The notes under the pieces were generated by a model. The model worked only from the letters and a program-made list of their open reading frames with translations. It had not been told where the DNA came from and ran no database searches. This document shows, piece after piece, positions 12,836 through 42,117 of a stretch of 64,000 nt of DNA (position 1 is its first letter; the number at the start of each line of letters is the position of its first letter). This DNA comes from Apophysomyces variabilis (lineage: Eukaryota; Mucoromycota; Mucoromycetes; Mucorales; Mucoraceae), in contig MZZL01000041.1 in the NCBI GenBank assembly GCA_002749535.1, positions 93,058-157,057 on the forward strand. Reading direction: 5' to 3'. The translations under genes were made by a program, and so were the position numbers.

Positions 12836-15800
12836 ATGGTCAATATTGCTCCCTATATTGCTAAAGCAAGTGGCGCCCTGCTCATCGATGCAGCAATCGA
12901 ACTTACACCATTGTTAGTACGTACGATCATTACATGCACGGAATGAGAATTTAAGGATTCCTTATACCCATACTCAGTATGGTGTGGTGCTCATGGTCGA
13001 TGTCGTTGGTAAATCATCGAGAAACAAAGCTTAGTCTTTCTCTTCTTTTTTCGTATCTAATCAAAAAGAAATCATGGTCTATTACCCGGTTAGGTTTCAG
13101 CATGGTAAATAATTCTTGCGTTTCTGTTTTTTATCAGATCAAGACTAACAAGAAAGAAAAACTCCCTAGCTGACGACGCTTGCTACGGAAAAGGGTGAAT
13201 CAGGCGCTGAGGCAATAGCATTGGAGATCGGAGCATACATGGGCGAAGCAAGTAGACTACCCAAAAAAAGCTGGGGCTATGGCATTGTTTGTCCACTTAC
13301 CCAATTCTGATTTTGTTTGGTTACTCTATTGCCTTTTTTTTCTTTACATAGTGTATCGAAATTATCGAGCATTACGGTGGAGATGTTGTCAAGGTAAAAA
13401 AATTCAATTGCAATAACAGAGGGTTCTTGTCTGTTCGAGCATGGAAATTTGGTTACTAAAAATCTACTTGATATTTACGCAGTTTCTCGGGGATGCCGTG
13501 CTTGTCAGCTTTCAGCCAGATCCAGCAGATAGCGAAACTGCCAGCGATCCATCATCCAACAGCGAGGAAAATTTAAGAGACACATCAGCCCGACAAAAAT
13601 ACGTTTTAGTGCGTCGAGCAGTGGAATGCGGTCTACAATTACTAGCACGCCAATCACATTACCGTGTATATTTAACGGCAGAAGAAAGATCAAAACATCG
13701 ATCCTCCACCACAGGCGAAATTGAACGTCGTACTGCACGGGATAAAAAAGAACGCTTTTTTCTGTTTGATAGTAATACAAGTGGCGTTGATAGCGAGAAT
13801 CAGCGATCCTCTTCCTCATCTGAACGTGTGCCATTTAACTTAGCCTTTCAAGATGGAGATTTACAATATCCGGAAGAATACAGCATGACTTTCAGTATCT
13901 GGAATTGCCTTCCCTTCTTAGGGCTGAGCAACCGGAAAAGCAGGTCTTATGCACGGCGTACAAGTGTATCCAGTGATACTTCTGGACGTGATATCAATTC
14001 GATCGATTTGGAACTCCATATAGCTTTAGCATGCGGCAATCTGACAAACCTCATATTAGGCGAAATAGAGCCGGAAGATACTGAACCACCCCTATCTCCC
14101 TCCGCCACCAGCGATAAGCGAAAATCATTTATTATGTCAGAGAAAGAGGATTATCAAGTTGAATACAATGGCCGACTCGAATATGCCGTCTGTGGACCGG
14201 TAGTAGAATCGCTCGAGGAAGCATTGTCCGCTGCGCAAGCTGGAGAAATGAGTATTACTCGGGAAGCCTATCACATCATTCTGAAGCAAGCAATGAACTT
14301 AACCTACGAGAAGCGACGGCAATTCTACATTGTAAAAAATGCTGATACCAATGCACATGCACGAAAAGGAAATGCTGTGCTACGACATCATCCTTTGTCT
14401 TCAACGAAACTTCCTCTTTCAACACCCAATGTACATTATTTGGCAGATCGACCAGGACTTATGAAAAATGCAGCTAAGCTCAATATCGAACCTATAGTAC
14501 CTCGAATACGCAATACAGCCTATATGGACATATCAAGCGAATCCAATCCTCATTATTTCAAATATCTGAACCGAAGCGCACTTTATCGATTACAACATAG
14601 TACAGATGATAACTTTCCTGCTCAATTTCGAGATGCGACAATTATGTTTATCAGTCTGGGAAAATTGGACGTTGGGTCAAGCGATGGCATCAACCTTGCA
14701 CAGGAAAGTGTATTGCTAGCCATGAGAACACTAGTGAAATATGAAGGTATTACTGAACAAACTCATCAGTACACTTTATGGAAGAAATACTTATGCATAA
14801 GTCATTTAGGCATGCTGCAGCAATTTGCAGTAGATGACAAAGGTTGACATTTTCTGCAACATCACTGTCGAAGTTAATCTATTTTTTCTTTTCTATTTTA
14901 GGTTCTACCTGTCTAGCTGTTTTTGGCCTTCCTCCACTTTCACATGAGCGTGAGGCTGTCTTTGCCGCCAAGGCTGCCATTGAGTTGCGTGATGCCTATC
15001 GAAAACTTAATTTGCCTGATTTCTCCATTGCACTTTCGACTGGCATTATATTTAATGCTGTTCTACCACAAGGAAACCCTTATCGTCGGGATCCTGGTAT
15101 TGCGGGTGATACGATTGTATTGGCCGTTCGTATGCTGAAGTTTCCCTTTGCTAAGAAAAACATTGTTTGTGATATTGCAACTAAGCAACAGATTGGTGGC
15201 ATCTGTGAGTTTGTAGATTACGGAGAAAACTTTGTGAAAGGAAAAGTCAAACCTGTACCTATTTATGGTATTCACCGATTTGGACCTGGTGGGAAGGCTA
15301 AAAGAATATCTCTGCAAAGCCTGGAGAAGAATACAGACTTTATTGGATACAAGTCAGAAATGGCCAAAGCAACCCAATTCCTGGACGATTGGGGAGAGAC
15401 ACAAAACCACCACTTGTTGATTATTTCTGGTCCTTCAGGGGTTGGTAAGAGTTTCTTTTGCCATGCTTTGAATCGAACAATTACATCTCATGGCGTGTCG
15501 TGCTGGTAAAGAAGATTCTTCCGTTATCAAAGCTATCCATAAATTAACCTTATCCTATATGTCTTTTCTTTTGTTTTTAGCTGGTCATCATCAACAGAAG
15601 GTATGCTGTAAATGAGTTGCGCAAGAATCGATTGTTTTGACATTAAGGTTTGTAGTCGAGAAGAGTTCAAAATACTATCTCGTGAAGAACCTGTTGCTGT
15701 TGTTGTTTGATATTATTGACTCGGACAAAGTGCCCCAAAATTCCAGAAAACGGATATCGCATCTTAGCACCTCTGTTCATCCTCATATAACCAGTATATC

Positions 15801-18800
15801 ATCCAATGGAATGGGAGGTTCCAGTCCTTCCACAGACTCATCGATTTCCTTTCCAGGGAACAGATTTCGGCGTCTTACTAGCGGCTCCAATGTAACACGA
15901 TCATCGTACGGGTGTACAAGCATGCGTAGCCCTGACGTACCAAACGAAATCGCAGAACTCATTATACGTTGCCTTCGTAAATGTGGTGAAGATGAGGGTT
16001 TCCTACCATTATTCAAAGTTGTCTTTGCGAACCTAAGCGACCTAGAAGAGAACAAGTACACTTGCCGCCTGGATGGACGAGGGCGGGATGTTCTATTAAT
16101 TGGCGTCATTTATCGAATGATCCGCTACGTGTCTGAACATATTGGCTTGGTGTTTATCTGTGATGATGTGCAATGTGAGTAGGCTTTTACCGTGCCCCAT
16201 AGTGATTTTTATGCTTTACTAAATTTACATGTTACGATAGGGGCTGACTCTGCATCGATTCGTATACTGCAACAGATCCACGAGCACTGCCAAAACGTAC
16301 TGCTGATTCTGGCGACAAGGCCTATCAAGGATTATAACGTTACATTTGTTAAAGAGTTTTGCGCAACGGGCTTTTCGGAAGAGATCCCTTTGAATGGATT
16401 AGGCACGGATGAAATTGGTGAAATTATCTTGCAGACATTCGAAACAGCAGTGTCTAAAGTCAGTCAAAAGATTGTAAACGTGATTCAGGTACATGTTAGT
16501 TGACTTTTGCCTTGAAACAAATGCTAAATGATTTGAAGAAACGTACTGGAGGCAATCCACTCTATGTCAAGTAAGTGCTAGATTTATATATTAACCAAAC
16601 CATATACTGAATGAGCATTTGCAGGAATATGGCAATTATTCTAAAGGATTTTAATCATGTCACTGTTGTCGATGGCGAACTGGTTCCAAGTAGTAGTGGG
16701 TTTGATCTTGAAGACCTGCTTGGTAATTTTGATTACAAGCGTATTATCAAAATGCAATTTGATCGATTGGATGCATACTTTCAAGAATTCCTTACGGTAG
16801 GGACCTCTTTTCTTTCCCCAAAGGATAACGGAGATTAATGTTTACTGCCACAGATTGCCAGTTGCTTGGATCAGACTTTTACAATCTTTGAAGCTCGGGC
16901 TGTCATCACGTACAACAATAATCCCCTCCTTACTGAGACTGATCCTCGAAAGATTCATGAAATGATTTCCAAATACGATGTCTACAACTTCCTACAACAA
17001 GTAGTGGATAGTCCCATGGAGACGACAGATGAAGTCTACTCTTTTGCTCATATCACGATTCCCCAGAGTATCTATGATATGGTTTCTTATGAAACTCGTA
17101 TCTCCATCCATCGGGCTCTTGCTCAGTATTATGAAGCACGGCTGACCAGGGAAAATGATGCGGACTTGCTTGGGAAAGTCACTAGACACTATCTTCAAAC
17201 AGATTGGTTTGGAAAGCAAATTTTCTATTTGGAAGCATTAGCAGAGGTCAACATGAAATCCTACCTTCTACCGGAAGCTACCAGTAATTTACAACGAATT
17301 GTACAGATCTTGGACGAAAACGAAGATCTTGCTATGCGATATGGTCGTACGCACCGTAGTGATATCTATCGTCGACTGGGAATATGCTACACCATGCGTA
17401 CGAAGTTAACCGAGGGCGAGCGTTATTTGTTCAAAGCATTAGAATGTCTTGGAGAGCCGTGGCCGCAAAGCGAACCTGAATTTCTGTTCAAATACTGGAA
17501 AAACCGGTTTTCTCAATACCGACATCGTCGTTGGGGTGTGCTGAATAAGTACACCATGAAAACGAAGAAAGAATTGGTTCGACGTATCGTCGAAATCATG
17601 GCACAGCTTTCCAATATATACTTCTATACAGGAAAAGGCCGCGCGTTTGTGTATACTTGTCTTGTCGGTTTAAATGCTTGCGAACGGCTTGAGGAAGTTG
17701 GTCCCGATTATACTTTATTCCTCGCCAGGAACTCCTTGTTATGTTGGTTAAACGACCAAAAGAATCATAGTGTATTTTACATTACCAAGGCGTTGCGACA
17801 TATGGACAAGAAGAACGATGCTGGCACGCTTACCATTTGTGCATTTTTATACTTTGCCGCTGGAAAATTCAAGATGGCAAGAGAACTACTGTATCAATCA
17901 ATCGATGCTGTGAAAACGTTAGGTGTTGTCACTGACTGTCAAGCTTTCTATCGCTCGGTTGGCCTGGTGATCACCATGCGAATTTTTGAGGGCACGCTCG
18001 ACAATTCAGACGACGACTTTCTGTTGTTAAAGCAGATGGCTGACACGGCGCATAGTAATGGCGACTACGAAGCTGAGATATGGCTAGGCGTTTATAACAT
18101 TGGGAATGCATTGATAAAGAACCACTTACGGCATTGCGAACCATTTGTCGCTCTGTTGGAGGCACACGTCAAGCAAGCAGCTGATTACAATCGTATTGCG
18201 ATTCATGGAACGCTTTTGTACTATTATGCACGAAGTCGCAATTATGAATACGCCCGACGACATACGCGAAACCTTGTCAGCATCTTACCAGCACTCACAG
18301 TGACACGTAAGTTATCTTGGGGTTGTGTGATGAGAGAACCAAACGCTGAAGTCCCATATCTTGGGCCACTCTATAGCAAATATTTTCCCTATTTTTGGTC
18401 TTATCTTTGCAACCATGGGAATGTATTGTATGGTTGAAGACGAACAAGTTGACCTGGTGTCGACTGGCGACTCAAAAACCTATGATCGATTTGTTTCAGG
18501 CGTGGCCAGATTAAATCATGCATTTCAGCAAGTGAAATTCTGGGAATTTACACAACCCTGTCTGTATTTGGCAAGAGCCCTCCCTTACATCAGCACAGAT
18601 AGGACAGTCGAAGGTTATATGGTGAGTTTCCGGAAGTGTTGGCAAAGCGATGTCTTATCTCTAAATCTGGAGCTTTAAATAGGTACTTCGACATGGTGTG
18701 TTTGAAATGCATTTTATTCAAGAGATACGGTTCCTTAAGGCGTATTACTGGTCTATGCTGGGCAAGTACGCATTTACTCCAGCTGACCGAATAGAGTGGA

Positions 18801-18913
18801 CCGAGAGAGCAAAGGCCGATTTAGAAAACTTGCAGATACCCTCTCATATGTATTGTAATCCGGACCCTGCGAAGTGCTATTCGCGGGGAACACCAGCAGA
18901 CTTGTGTGCATGA
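12836..18913 (+). CDS. Soluble-type (ADCY10-like) class III adenylyl cyclase
   Basis: Makes cAMP from ATP; animal relatives are bicarbonate-stimulated. Proposed exons: 12836-12916, 12978-13008, 13094-13104, 13170-13247, 13352-13393, 13483-14842, 14902-15505, 15581-15600, 15656-16174, 16241-16488, 16539-16570, 16625-16796, 16854-18306, 18377-18621, 18683-18913. All phases agree, giving about 1,708 residues (human ADCY10 is 1,610). The order matches the family: first cyclase domain with VDVVGFSM (metal Asp about 35) and GGDVVKFLGDAV (second Asp about 85), second cyclase domain with LAVFGLPP and AVRMLKFPFAKKN, a P-loop GPSGVGKS near residue 712, a Walker B-like VFICDDVQWAD, then a helical TPR-like C-terminal half. 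An extra Ser-rich segment of about 115 residues interrupts the first cyclase domain. Oddities: exons of 11 and 20 bp, and a GC-AG intron at 13248. The join at 16489-16538 has an unusual AAG acceptor and is the weakest. The start is the first ATG after an in-frame stop; an upstream exon is possible. No membrane segments are evident. Confidence 0.88.
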
Positions 18914-25859: not shown

Positions 25860-26519
25860 GTTCTGGCTGATCCGAAATGTGTCTGTCAAACACAACTTGG
25901 AATGCCTTGCAAGCTGTGATATTTAATTTCCGCTGCGAAGTACAAGCAATATGACAATACGAGTAACAGCAAACAATAACAACAGCATGATTATGAGCAT
26001 TTCCAGCGGAAGCAATTGTAGGGAGCGTTACGGCAAGAAAAGCATTACAACCTTATCATTGGCGTGTCAAGATTACTATGGCTGACTGCACACGTTTATG
26101 TCAAATAATCTAGGAAGATGGCATTCTACAGTCGTAGAACGCAAATTTCATGGAGAATACCATGAATGGCCCGAGATATCGGATTAACTGTTCGTCTACG
26201 GTAGGATGACCGCTTCTCGAATATGTTAAAGATAGCTTTTATAGGCGTAAAATATCTCACATAAGTTAATGAGAACCATTTAACTAAAATCAACCAGAGA
26301 AACGACCCATAGTTTTAACACTAAAAATCTGGAATCCTAATGGTTACTCTGAACATAGAGATCACAAATTTACAGCTTGGAAGCTTTCCGGAAATGGTAC
26401 AAGAAGAATATGGATTTGACTCGATGTAACAAACTGGATTCGTGCAACCTCTGAACCCCCGCGCGCTTGTCGCGGAAAGTTAATTGTACACTTGAACATA
26501 AAACAGCCTAGATATCCCA
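25860..26519. promoter_or_regulatory. Shared upstream region of POT1 and the F-box gene
   Basis: The two genes start 660 bp apart on opposite strands, so this interval must carry both promoters. No specific element was recognised. Confidence 0.4.
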
Positions 26520-28265
26520 ATGACGGATTCAATACTTTTGGAATTGGAATCTGCGAAAGACCATTCAATGCACAAAACATCAATAAACGATTTACCACGC
26601 GAGATCCTGCAGAAGATCGCCGATAGACTGACACAAAGAACAGTACTTAATCTGGTCTATGTCTGCCGATCGTGGAATGCCATATTGACCCCTCTGCTCT
26701 ACAAGCACATCGAGATTTATTCAACGGATCAATTCCATCAACTGCACAACGCCATCTTGTCGACAGCCTCGAACAGGCAGCTTGGTAGGCTTGTGCACGA
26801 AATTTGGTTCTCGAAAGAATTTGACGAGAACGCACACATTTTACCTCTCAAAGAGGTTACTTGCCGTAACGAAACATCGTACTGTTCAGGCCTGTCTTCT
26901 TTTCTACTTGAATGGGAGGGCCTTCAGAAGATTCACATTGAATACCGACTGAAGTTACCTGTGGCTTTACCGTCGCAATTTCTCCAAAATCGGCTCCTTA
27001 CTTTGACAATGAGGATAGAAAAGATGGAAGAATGGATTGACCTGATTTCAAGTTTTCTCTGCCTCCAAGTCTTAGACATGTATTTTATTGCCAATGAGGA
27101 GAATGAAACGGAAGGAAAAGTATCCTTTGCTCAGTTGGAGACGCTTCAAAACAATCTTGTGCATCTCCAATCCCTCACTATGGAACATCTTCGGGTTAAT
27201 GGCGACATACCGAAGGAGATAGTCCCATGCCAATCTGTATGCAGCCTCTCACTGAGCGTGAAGGAGGGGACGAGGTGGGGTCAATATTTTGCTGAAAAAT
27301 ACCCAAAGCTGGAATACTTGGAGATAATGGACACTTATGAAATACCTGTTGATACGGATAACGAACTTCAACCGCTCGTCAGATCATGTTATCATCTTCG
27401 AACGTTTTTGATAGATAATGAGCCAGCCTACCGATCTGTGCTGCGCTCGCTTGGAGAGATAGGTATCCGGTTAGAATATATTTTTTATTTAGATAATGAT
27501 GCCTCTTGGCTATCTGAATCCATCCGACGCTTCCATAAAACACTTTCGACAGTCCATCTTTGCAGCGATGTTAGGTTGCCGATCGAAGAAATCCTGGACC
27601 ATTTAAAGACTTGTCCATCATTAGCGGATTTACGACTAGTTTGCGCTTCCGATACGCTGCTTATTGACTGGCTTCTGGACGAGTTAGGTGGTCTCCAACA
27701 TCTACATCTAAGTGGAGCCTATGTCGTAATAAAAGCACGCGATAGTGCAACAATACCTCATAAATTAAAAACGTTGACAATGATGGCGCGACACACGGAG
27801 GACAACGTTTACATTTATCTCTCGCGATGCTGCCCTCACTTATCCTCGTTAGACTGCTGGTATTACAAAGATGACCATCGACCGCGCAAGATATATTATC
27901 CAAACCCAGGGCTAAAGCATCTCGGTATCAATATCCGAGGGGATTGTATCTACCAGATAAAGAAGGTGGCTGAAGGAGAATCTATCTGGGAATGGAACAA
28001 AACTCATAAATCATTTGTTGAAAAGAAACAGAACAGAACGTGTACACAATGGTATCGGAAGCTTAACGGGAAGATAGTTGGACTTTCATCTTCTGCAGTG
28101 GCCAAGTTTTTCAACGATCAGGATGACAGAATCAATACCATCCAAACCGGGATAGCGCAACAAAATAACCAAATGTTTGAAGTGTCATACACGCTTCCTG
28201 TGGTATCTATTGTATGTCACTATGTAGAAGAAATTACATTAAACTGGGCATCCATATTTAATTAA
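26520..28265 (+). CDS. F-box protein with leucine-rich tail
   Basis: Likely substrate receptor of an SCF ubiquitin ligase. It is intronless, 581 residues. An F-box sits at about residues 22-65: NDLPREILQKIADRL, then VCRSWNAILTPLLYK, the usual order for binding Skp1. The rest is a series of degenerate leucine-rich repeats (for example LEYLEIMD, LADLRLVCASD, LKTLTMMAR, CCPHLSSLDC), typical of the many fast-evolving F-box/LRR proteins in this fungal group. The substrate cannot be inferred. The start is the first ATG of the frame. Confidence 0.85.
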   Translation: MTDSILLELESAKDHSMHKTSINDLPREILQKIADRLTQRTVLNLVYVCRSWNAILTPLLYKHIEIYSTDQFHQLHNAILSTASNRQLGRLVHEIWFSKEFDENAHILPLKEVTCRNETSYCSGLSSFLLEWEGLQKIHIEYRLKLPVALPSQFLQNRLLTLTMRIEKMEEWIDLISSFLCLQVLDMYFIANEENETEGKVSFAQLETLQNNLVHLQSLTMEHLRVNGDIPKEIVPCQSVCSLSLSVKEGTRWGQYFAEKYPKLEYLEIMDTYEIPVDTDNELQPLVRSCYHLRTFLIDNEPAYRSVLRSLGEIGIRLEYIFYLDNDASWLSESIRRFHKTLSTVHLCSDVRLPIEEILDHLKTCPSLADLRLVCASDTLLIDWLLDELGGLQHLHLSGAYVVIKARDSATIPHKLKTLTMMARHTEDNVYIYLSRCCPHLSSLDCWYYKDDHRPRKIYYPNPGLKHLGINIRGDCIYQIKKVAEGESIWEWNKTHKSFVEKKQNRTCTQWYRKLNGKIVGLSSSAVAKFFNDQDDRINTIQTGIAQQNNQMFEVSYTLPVVSIVCHYVEEITLNWASIFN

Positions 28266-32834: not shown

Positions 32835-34371
32835 ATGTCCTCTCAATCTCTTCAAGTAACTCCAACCTCGACCTACGATTCGCGTTGGAACATCAATGAT
32901 AGTGCCTTAGATCTACTTAATGCAGCCATAGCTAGCCATCACCAACCTCATTCGATTGCATCGGAAGAAAAAGTCTTAACTTTTAACGAACACATTCCGG
33001 CTGGACTGGAAACTAAAAGAGAAACGAAAGACTCACCAGAAGCACAAAGTAATTATCTCATTTTATGTCATAGTGTCTTTGTCTCATAGTATGTTATAGC
33101 TCCATCGACGAAGAGAAGAATTGGTAAAACCGAACAAGGTATAGAAAGATGGGCAAAATGGTCAAGTCGAGCCTTGTTTTTTAAACCTATAATATTTAAT
33201 AGATGAAACCAAAAAAGATTCACAGCAAGTGCCTTCTACACCAAAACGACCGGGACGAAAACCATTAGAGAAAACACCAGACAATGTAAACTTGCGTAAT
33301 ATCATGTCAGCGGCCAAGTTGTTAATAATGCTATCCTAACGGCAGGAACTTCTACAAGATCCTAAACAAAAGCGTAAAGCTCAGAATCGCGCTGCACAAC
33401 GAGCCTTCCGGGAACGCAAGGAAAAGCATGTCTCTGAGCTACAAGAACGCATTCGTGAACTGGAAAAGGCTTGTGCAGAAAAGGACGATGCTCTTATTCA
33501 AGAAAACAAGAGACTTAAAGAAGAACTGAAAAGACTTCAAGAAGAAAACTATGCACTCAAAGGCACGATGTTCACGTTTGAATTCCCTGTACCAACAGAC
33601 ACCGAGTCTAGCCCACCATCTACGAAAGGAGAAACTGCACCTAGTCTGAGTAACCATAGTTTTAGCAGCGGAAATAGCTGCAGCGGCGGAGAAGAAGGCT
33701 CAAGTAGCACCAGCAGTGATCACTCTCCAGAATCCCATACCGCGCATGAGGAAGATGCTGTCAGCTCCGTGTTCTCATCGAAGGATACGGTGTACACGTT
33801 TGGCCCATTGCCTCGAGAGCATGATCTTGATTTTCTGGCTGTGCCAGGAAACGGAACACCGGCAACACCCGCTCTGGGAGAACTGTTTCATGGCAAGGAT
33901 GAACTCTTCACTGGATATCGTGTACCTTCAAATGATGATTTCTTGTTTGACAGTGAGCAGCTATCGACTCTGTTCGGTACCAATGATTTATTTGGTTTTA
34001 CGACACCCGCTGCCCCCACCACCATCACCACCAGCACCACCAGCGCTGCTGCTGCTGCTGCCAGCATTACTGCCTCAACTTTCAATTCCGACCAACAATC
34101 ATTCGCATATTCTTCATCCGAGAATTTACTGGAACAAGCACAAGTGCCATCACAAGAAGCATGCGCGTATGACGTACGCGGGACGATCCTGCAGGCAAGA
34201 GAACAAGGACGAAACGCATATGAACTACGAGAACAACTTGAAGAATGCCCTGACTTCAATCTGGATATGCTCTGTGAAGATCTTAGACGAAAGGCAACAT
34301 GTTCCCAAGCATCCTATCTGCTCAGTGATAAAGATGTAGATGCATTTGTGAAGTGTTTTGGATCAAAGTAA
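32835..34371 (+). CDS. bZIP transcription factor of the Pap1/Yap1 (AP-1-like) type
   Basis: A likely redox- or stress-responsive activator. Four exons in phase: 32835-33048, 33100-33138, 33203-33285 and 33346-34371, giving 453 residues. The basic region at about residues 119-140 reads KRKAQNRAAQRAFRERK, with the Gln and Phe typical of the fungal Pap1 class, followed by a leucine zipper (ELQERIRELEKACAEKD onward) to about residue 185. A Ser-rich and then Ala/Thr-rich middle follows. The C-terminus carries Cys residues in EECPDFNLDMLCEDLRRK, then ATCSQ and VKCFG, like the C-terminal cysteine-rich domain through which Yap1/Pap1 sense oxidants and mask nuclear export. Whether the disulfide switch operates here is inference. 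The start is the first ATG after a non-ATG extension. Confidence 0.9.
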
Positions 34372-40170: not shown

Positions 40171-41056
40171 TTAGGCATGCACTGCTTTAACTGAACGCTC
40201 TTTAAGACATTGAGTATCATTGGTAAAGGATGCCGCAAACCCCTCGGCAAAGTCCAGATACAGTGGATCCTGGAAATAGGACTGTTCCACATATGCACAT
40301 GCAGATACAAGGCTTTCAAAATCATTGAATCCTACTTTTCTTTAATAAATGGTTAGCTAAACAGTAAATGCATCTAAGTTGTAACCAACCTGGAGCAGGA
40401 CGACCCGTAGATACGTCATTAAGCCAAGAAAATTTAGCTAGCAACATCGCCTTCCAGCTTATGAGGTCTAAACTTGTTATTCCGCTCCTCAACCTTGGAG
40501 AAACCAATTTGCCGCAATTCCTCCGGTGCTCTACAGCTGTATGTGGAAGCCAGAACAATCCTGGTTGGGCTGCACAAAACTCAACTAGGATTTGCATGGC
40601 ATTCTTGGGCAGGTTAATTAGATAACAGCTAAATTATCTTGCCTTGGCCCCATCGCCCAGTTTGCCTGCGCTGGTTGTGGTAGACATTTTCTTCCTTGGT
40701 CAAACATAGTGCACTCGCTCGGTTGACACACGTTTTTCCCAAAGTAATAACTTCAACCGTTCCAATGCCTTGTTTGTGTCCATTTGTGTGCACCGTGGCC
40801 TGTGCGATGGAGTAAATCTTTCTTTGCATGATCACCTTTTAGCTTATACACCTCGTACGAGTTGCCTTTTATGGCTTGTCAGGAAAGGACTCCCATTTGC
40901 GAAGAAAAACCATTCGGCACGAGAAGCTTTTAACCGCACAAATATCGATATTCCTAGGTGCATGACGACACCATACTTTATACTGCCATATGGATTGTTC
41001 TTGCGCAGATTCGTAGTGACAACCAAAGCAAAGGTAAAACGTTGTATCGTTTCCAT
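40171..41056 (-). CDS. Unidentified spliced gene beside the assembly gap
   Basis: Exon-like minus-strand frames follow one another in a believable order. Near 40178-40330 FNDFESLVSACAYVEQSYF leads to LYLDFAEGFAASFTND and a stop at 40171. Upstream, 40400-40597 reads MQILVEFCAAQPGLFWLPH and FSWLNDVSTGRPAP, joined to the last exon by a GTTGGT...AAAAG intron with a GCTAACC branch. Further upstream 40640-40835 reads VHTNGHKQGIGTVEVITLGK, and 40860-41056 reads FALVVTTNLRKNNPYGSIKY. The joins between the upstream pieces are not secured and one would need a GC donor. I recognise no family. The gene may extend past the N-gap into 41540-41960, where more frames of the same strand occur. A decayed retroelement is the main alternative. 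Confidence 0.3.
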
Positions 41057-41078
41057 TGACTGATTAAGAGCCGGAAAG

Positions 41079-41110
<32 letters not shown>

Positions 41111-41111
41111 A

Positions 41112-41429
41112 NNNNNNNNNNNNNNNNNNNNNNNNNNNNNNNNNNNNNNNNNNNNNNNNNNNNNNNNNNNNNNNNNNNNNNNNNNNNNNNNNNNNNNNNN
41201 NNNNNNNNNNNNNNNNNNNNNNNNNNNNNNNNNNNNNNNNNNNNNNNNNNNNNNNNNNNNNNNNNNNNNNNNNNNNNNNNNNNNNNNNNNNNNNNNNNNN
41301 NNNNNNNNNNNNNNNNNNNNNNNNNNNNNNNNNNNNNNNNNNNNNNNNNNNNNNNNNNNNNNNNNNNNNNNNNNNNNNNNNNNNNNNNNNNNNNNNNNNN
41401 NNNNNNNNNNNNNNNNNNNNNNNNNNNNN
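41112..41429. other. Assembly gap (318 N)
   Basis: A run of N flanked on both sides by the same sequence, ATTAAGAGCCGGAAAG followed by a long A run and GAA (left copy from 41063, right copy from 41430). This suggests the two contig ends overlap and the gap is artificial or marks a homopolymer that stopped assembly. Confidence 0.95.
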
Positions 41430-42117
41430 ATTAAGAGCCGGAAAGAAAAAAAAAAAAAAAAAAAAAAAAAGAAGGTAAATACCAAGCAGGGAGAAACAAA
41501 TTGGTTTCGGAGAATCAGTGTTGCCACGACATCTGTCATATTATGGACGGGCCTTGATCTGGGATTTCGTTCACTGACAAGTTAATGCTCAAACCACTGC
41601 TGTTTGCAAGCAAAGCGAGTAATACAGCCGTGTGTAAATGGTTATTCTTTTTATTTGATTTCAATTCTGTGATATTGATTGTATTGCTTAGAGGGTATGG
41701 AGCAAGTGTCACAGCAGATCTAGCAGTTAGTGGAGTAGTAGATGTCACCAATTCTTAGCCCAATATGCAGGTTTTTATAAGGTACTTTGGCCAGATCAAA
41801 AGTACTTTTGTGCCGGCGAACAGAGTATCTTTGCCCTGAACGGAAAACAAATTTCACTCTATCAAGGCATCGTAACAGAGTGCTCAAGGTCAAAAAAAAA
41901 GCCGCGCTTTTTACTGTACATAATATAACTATTGCTAAGACCTTGGATAAAAATAACAAGGAATTAATATGGTGTTGCTACTTTACGACAATACTGATTC
42001 AAAGAACAATTAGATAGAAAAAAGCGAGAAGAAATGCAAACGGCATGGTGCATGTGTAAAAAAGGATCGCCGCCGATATTAGCGCGCTCTTATTGGGCCA
42101 CACTATCTTTCAGTGTA
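41430..42117. other. Region between gap and tRNA gene
   Basis: Minus-strand frames at 41536-41751 and 41720-41959 look mildly protein-like (LLALLANSSGLSINLSV; YSVRRHKSTFDLAKVPYKNL) but no family or secure splice join is seen. They may belong to the same unknown gene as 40171-41056. Confidence 0.3.

Follow-up and report, generated by a model that had tools for sequence, protein, structure and literature searches.

A soluble-adenylyl-cyclase-type gene of Apophysomyces variabilis with an active-site change fixed across the Mucoromycota sequences examined

In human soluble adenylyl cyclase (sAC, ADCY10; PDB 4clw, 4clf, 4oya), the accessible passages of PMC4506562 describe a metal site formed by Asp47 and Asp99, an NXXXR motif with Asn412 and Arg416, a ribose contact at Ala415, and a bicarbonate site comprising Lys95, Val167, Arg176 and Met337. 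Adenine recognition in adenylyl cyclases is mediated by a Lys plus an Asp or Thr (excerpt of PMC7384201). A natural variant of the motif is found in Ma1120 of Mycobacterium avium, described in the excerpt of PMC4215837 as an active adenylyl cyclase with Ala in place of the Asn and the Arg kept. Here, we describe a gene for an sAC-type protein in a 64,000-nucleotide stretch of the fungus Apophysomyces variabilis (contig MZZL01000041.1; the window). Like Ma1120, the protein has lost the Asn of NXXXR and kept the Arg, but Val is present at the Asn position, and all Mucoromycota homologues examined carry Ile or Val there and not Ala.

Mapping of the human sites placed Asp47 at Asp38 and Asp99 at Asp88 of the window protein, with Arg416 at Arg593, Asn412 at Val589 and Ala415 at Val592. 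We take the residues that specify adenine in human sAC to be Lys334 and Thr405; their counterparts are Gln510 and Gly582. The NXXXR motif in C2 is therefore not intact (Val589...Arg593), and the adenine pair is replaced as well. The metal Asp pair is present in C1 only, the C2 counterparts, placed by eye, being Ser475 and Ser518. The composite C1-C2 site keeps both metal Asp residues, the catalytic Arg and the C2 Lys, and the latter is also retained in the composite site of the Mucoromycota proteins. The counterparts at the bicarbonate site are Lys84, Val320, Glu329 and Val513, and a long variable insert inside C1 further distinguishes the protein from human ADCY10.

Three protein searches, with the best 120 of 140, the best 120 of 363 and the best 120 of 217 matches listed, provided the homologues. 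The active-site positions were tallied in the query and 120 homologues, 109 of these rows being Mucoromycota. Groups follow search rank and source names: the window protein and P0001-P0063 represent Mucoromycotina and kin (64 rows), and P0064-P0108 represent Mortierellomycotina (45 rows), with P0026 and P0065 grouped without a source name. Position 412 is Ile or Val and Arg416 is kept in 109/109 Mucoromycota rows. Asp99 is kept in 106 of the 109 (two gaps, one Ser) and Asp47 in all 77 rows that have a residue at this position (32 gaps), while Gln stands in for Lys334 in 105 of the 106 rows that have a residue there (one Asp). In a realignment of 346 proteins with a hidden Markov model (HMM), which is not independent of the first alignment because the HMM was built from it, the triad 412-415-416 reads [IV]VR in 109/109 Mucoromycota and in 0/237 other homologues. 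The latter show NAR (222), NSR (11), YAR (2), NAG (1) or AHR (1), with Asn in 234/237.

Phylogenetic analysis was performed on 65 rows, excluding columns 412, 415, 176 and 334 and leaving out the human sequence, euk_P0236 and bac_P0115. The fungi separate from the rest with supports of 100/95. On the fungal side, like the window protein, are the sAC-like proteins of zoosporic fungi (Batrachochytrium, Spizellomyces, Synchytrium, Allomyces, Blastocladiella, Anaeromyces); they share Gln for the adenine Lys (28/28 rows), but form a separate subgroup (98/93) in which Asn412 is kept in 28/28 rows (a set that includes P0117). A chytrid sAC-like expansion groups with Mucoromycota (100/99), yet keeps Asn412 in 41/42 rows, and Mucoromycota themselves are supported at 100/99. 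A quick tree of 68 rows that includes the three omitted sequences recovers the same fungal groups, with a very long human branch (3.67). This topology agrees, we infer, with a duplication early in the fungi and a single loss of the Asn on the branch leading to Mucoromycota.

Among the matches listed in the second and third searches, Chytridiales sp. JEL 0842 contributes at least 31 protein models (e.g. P0109, P0111, P0121-P0137, P0284), a large lineage-specific expansion; fragmentary or fused models, or hits falling outside the cyclase domains, may account for some of these. In precomputed Pfam annotation, four protist or unnamed proteins (P0237, P0238, P0253, P0260) carry a class III cyclase and a cyclic-nucleotide phosphodiesterase (PF00233) on the same polypeptide.

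The chytrid relatives P0127 and P0283 are labelled 'Adenylate cyclase type 10' by their source, and the named mucoralean relatives are annotated as hypothetical, uncharacterized, unnamed product or domain-containing protein. Among the papers listed by searches of open-licence literature, judged by title and abstract beginning, we found none treating an ADCY10-type gene in Mucoromycota. The architecture is already known; we would call the fixed active-site change across Mucoromycota new.

The protein is of the soluble-adenylyl-cyclase type, with C1, C2, an NTPase and a long C-terminus in this order. A preliminary description, made from the sequence alone, had recognized an ADCY10-type layout, and this is borne out: a 30-row family profile compared with the PDB retrieved human ADCY10 (E 1.8e-59), with C1 and C1-C2 aligning as two stretches, the predicted fold of the relative P0062 is consistent with two tandem class III cyclase domains, and a P-loop NTPase follows C2 (AAA_16 with a Walker A motif), as in the sAC type. 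The HMM search that it had proposed succeeded in part, as AAA_16 was found (E 6.7e-9), whereas the Pfam Guanylate_cyc model detected neither cyclase domain of the window protein. The approximately 700 residues after the NTPase gave a sub-threshold TPR_12 match (E 0.14; Pfam, 1708-residue model, see below).

The interval proposed earlier coincides exactly with the start and stop codons of one spliced gene (Table 1), with a coding sequence of 5073 nt and 15 introns, of which 13 are GT-AG and two GC-AG. All 15 joins were compared with five mucoralean proteins, and the 13-residue windows across them were ungapped in 75/75 cases, with 9-13 identities each; the splice model thus rests on conservation over the joined exons. 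An alternative model (14 introns, 1708 residues) was rejected, as it misjoined exon 2 at intron 1 and retained the in-frame intron 6. The query of the first protein search and of the search that gave the paralogue, and the query row of the 120-homologue alignment, the quick tree and the triad table, derive from this 1708-residue model, the active-site residues being identical in both; residue mapping, the 65-row tree, the AAA_16 search and the regional conservation used the corrected 1690-residue model. In the deposited A. ossiformis orthologue (P0001) the first GC-AG intron is read through and exons 2-4 are absent, and for this reason it apparently lacks the first metal Asp.

Table 1. Positions in the window of the sAC-type gene, its notable introns and exon, and the domains and sites of its product.
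Feature	Position	Strand	Basis or remark
Complete gene from start to stop codon, 1690 aa in 16 exons	12836..18913	+	sAC-type protein; introns placed by homology
Intron 1, GC-AG, donor GCAAGT	12866..12917	+	resulting N-terminus aligns with mucoralean homologues (P0003, P0004, P0005, others)
Microexon, 11 nt, inside VGFSM of the first metal-site motif	13094..13104	+	both junctions ungapped in 5/5 homologues
Intron 4, second GC-AG, donor GCAAGT	13248..13351	+	splice model
Intron 6, in-frame, 63 nt	14747..14809	+	splice model
C1 cyclase domain, residues 32-370, long variable insert ~99-262	12981..14340	+	profile against human ADCY10
C1 metal Asp38	12999-13001	+	site mapping
C1 Lys84 (human Lys95)	13391-13393	+	site mapping
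C1 metal Asp88	13492-13494	+	site mapping
C1 Glu329 (human Arg176)	14215-14217	+	site mapping
C2 cyclase domain, residues 466-650	14626..15302	+	profile against human ADCY10
C2 Val589 (human Asn412)	15117-15119	+	site mapping
C2 Val592 (human Ala415)	15126-15128	+	site mapping
C2 Arg593 (human Arg416)	15129-15131	+	site mapping
Other C2 sites: Gln510 (Lys334), Gly582 (Thr405), Lys629	within 14626..15302	+	site mapping
AAA_16 / STAND-like P-loop NTPase, residues 671-913	15363..16287	+	Pfam AAA_16, E 6.7e-9, above cut-off
Walker A GPSGVGKS, residues 693-700	15429-15452	+	sequence motif
Walker B region VFICDDVQW	end spans 16174/16241 junction	+	sequence motif
C-terminal region without confident domain, residues 1011-1690	16683..18910	+	sub-threshold TPR_12 only

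Elsewhere in the window, an open frame at 40844-41581 reads as a long string of X when translated and corresponds to a gap or masked stretch between homopolymer tracts. By eye only, the frame at 33340-34371 resembles a bZIP (Yap-type) transcription factor, and the long frame at 26502-28265 an F-box and leucine-rich-repeat protein.

The genome (38.7 Mb, 126 contigs) was searched for related genes. A paralogue is present on contig C95, with 55-84% identity over seven pieces. Pfam Guanylate_cyc genes are found on contigs C83 and C87, each adjoining a PP2C domain and keeping the metal motifs and an intact NXXXR (VNKASR). On the combination of PP2C and a cyclase domain these two genes are Cyr1-type, leucine-rich repeats being seen by eye only; Cac1 of Cryptococcus is also of this type. 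The window protein is likewise a class III cyclase homologue, but it has two cyclase domains where the Cyr1 type has one, and no leucine-rich-repeat or PP2C match was found in its Pfam listing. The earlier view that it is not Cyr1 therefore holds, the Cyr1-type genes lying elsewhere. The best protein match is from A. ossiformis (93%; best 120 of 140 matches listed), and the top 63 among the matches listed are Mucoromycotina and kin, neither Cyr1-type nor bacterial. In the third protein search (best 120 of 217 matches listed) there was no named animal row. Homologue searches and tree together support the expectation of a fungal gene with relatives in other early-diverging fungi.

Conservation was assessed by averaging the identity of 18 Mucoromycota representatives to the query. 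The mean is highest in C1a (0.74), followed by C2 (0.61). The two NTPase parts reach 0.46 and 0.57 and each C-terminal part 0.52, and values are lower in the second half of C1 (C1b, 0.40) and the inserts (0.32-0.37). Judged by this pattern, the cyclase core is not decaying; the metal, Arg and Lys residues are kept while two ribose-side positions have changed together.

How might such a site function? Our preferred reading, to which we would give an even chance, is that the gene belongs to an ancient fungal lineage within the sAC family, in which the site still binds metal-nucleotide and cyclase chemistry is lost or greatly changed. The retained residues and the predicted fold suggest that the composite site binds metal-nucleotide, and C1 and C2 would still fold on each other. 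The standard conversion of ATP to cAMP would be lost or much reduced, and the C1-C2 pair would mainly serve as a nucleotide-binding regulatory module attached to the STAND-like NTPase. Partner binding would fall to the C-terminal region, and regulated cAMP would come chiefly from the two Cyr1-type enzymes. In support of a non-cyclase role are the bulky hydrophobic residue at the Asn position and the coupled Ala-to-Val change, unseen in the other homologues. A cyclase-like ATP-binding protein also exists, as the title of PDB 6yii indicates; on this structure we found nothing in the open-licence literature. More specifically, and with somewhat less than even confidence, an ADCY10-type cyclase may have turned, in the Mucoromycota ancestor, into a regulator that binds nucleotide and controls a STAND NTPase without acting as a cyclase, and may have been kept since and duplicated in Mucorales.

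Several observations weigh against our preferred reading. Both Asp residues and the Arg are retained, as an active cyclase would show, and C1b is weakly conserved, with 20-40% gaps there in three representatives. Ma1120 is active without the Asn, so that loss of this residue is no proof of lost catalysis, and the excerpt of PMC4215837 adds that putting Asn into Ma1120 lowered its activity; a firm claim of inactivity through loss of the Asn was withdrawn for this reason. The corresponding Asn makes no hydrogen bond to the sugar in the structure of a fungal guanylate cyclase (PMC7384201, in the part available). Furthermore, the change from Lys to Gln is uninformative about inactivity, because zoosporic relatives that keep the Asn share the Gln. 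It is quite possible, though we would stop short of even chances, that the protein is an active but unusual nucleotide cyclase in which the Arg alone stabilizes the transition state, as in Ma1120. The NTPase module would then drive a second supply of cyclic nucleotide, independent of Cyr1, and a purine pocket remodelled to Gln with Gly, Ala or Ser would change or relax substrate choice. The retained Asp pair, Arg416 and C2 Lys and the strong constraint on C1a and C2 favor such activity, as does a report on Mucor lusitanicus in which, in the passage available (PMC9226013), cyr1 overexpression left the tested trait unchanged, with the possible involvement of a further adenylyl cyclase gene suggested by its authors. 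The Ma1120 precedent, however, concerns Ala, whereas the replacement here is bulky and hydrophobic and is accompanied, three positions further along, by another bulky one. None of the 237 other homologues, 234 of which keep the Asn, carries this residue pair.

The preliminary description had also raised a CO2- or bicarbonate-linked second cAMP input. As the residue at Arg176 is Glu and the transition-state Asn412 is Val, cAMP synthesis by the protein is uncertain, and this proposal is not sustained; we consider an ADCY10-like bicarbonate-activated adenylyl cyclase improbable. It would share architecture and fold with the human enzyme, and Lys95 is kept in 107/107 Mucoromycota rows having a residue there. 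Mucor at 75 mM bicarbonate grows only as yeast, and in CO2-induced yeast growth protein kinase A (PKA) activity is raised, for which the authors propose adenylyl cyclase activation (passages of PMC3764228); a later paper cites sAC work for the bicarbonate/adenylyl cyclase step (PMC6989107, in part). On the other hand, Arg176 is replaced by Asp or Glu in 103/109 Mucoromycota rows (two Ser, two Gly, one Ala, one gap) and the NXXXR Asn is lost, while a fungal adenylyl cyclase activated by bicarbonate is already known from Cryptococcus (excerpt of PMC8122340) and two Cyr1-type genes are present in this genome. The loss of Arg176 is not decisive against bicarbonate control, because the remaining bicarbonate residues seen in human sAC are likewise not conserved in bacterial orthologues (PMC4506562, passages as above). 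Arg176 is moreover nearly confined to the human row, being found in 0/67 non-human rows of the 68-row alignment and in one outgroup row, P0118, of the 120-homologue alignment, which weakens an argument from this residue. With Lys95 kept, the protein may receive bicarbonate input in some other form, and the gene is a candidate for the Mucor CO2 response, for which the passages name no gene.

That the locus is a contaminant, an assembly error or a decaying pseudogene we regard as highly implausible. The failure of the Guanylate_cyc model and the absence of the first metal Asp from the alignment in 32/109 Mucoromycota rows could be read in this way, but the frame is open over sixteen exons, the paralogue lies on another contig of the genome, identity to A. 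ossiformis is 93% with relatives across Mucorales, and C1a and C2 are the most conserved parts. Frame, paralogue, homologue matches and the separate PP2C-cyclase genes together rule out bacterial contamination, Cyr1 identity and a pseudogene.

Across the 109 Mucoromycota rows examined, the active site of the sAC-type proteins, the kind similar to the bicarbonate sensor of animals, is remodelled without exception. Together they amount to about a hundred natural sequences that keep the metal site and have lost the transition-state Asn. As for the CO2-sensing gene of Mucor, the two kinds of cyclase-family genes in the genome make the question testable by deletion and assay. If an ancestral conversion into a non-cyclase regulator did take place, a major group of fungi would have a 'cyclase' that signals without producing cAMP, with another protein mediating the CO2 response of Mucor.
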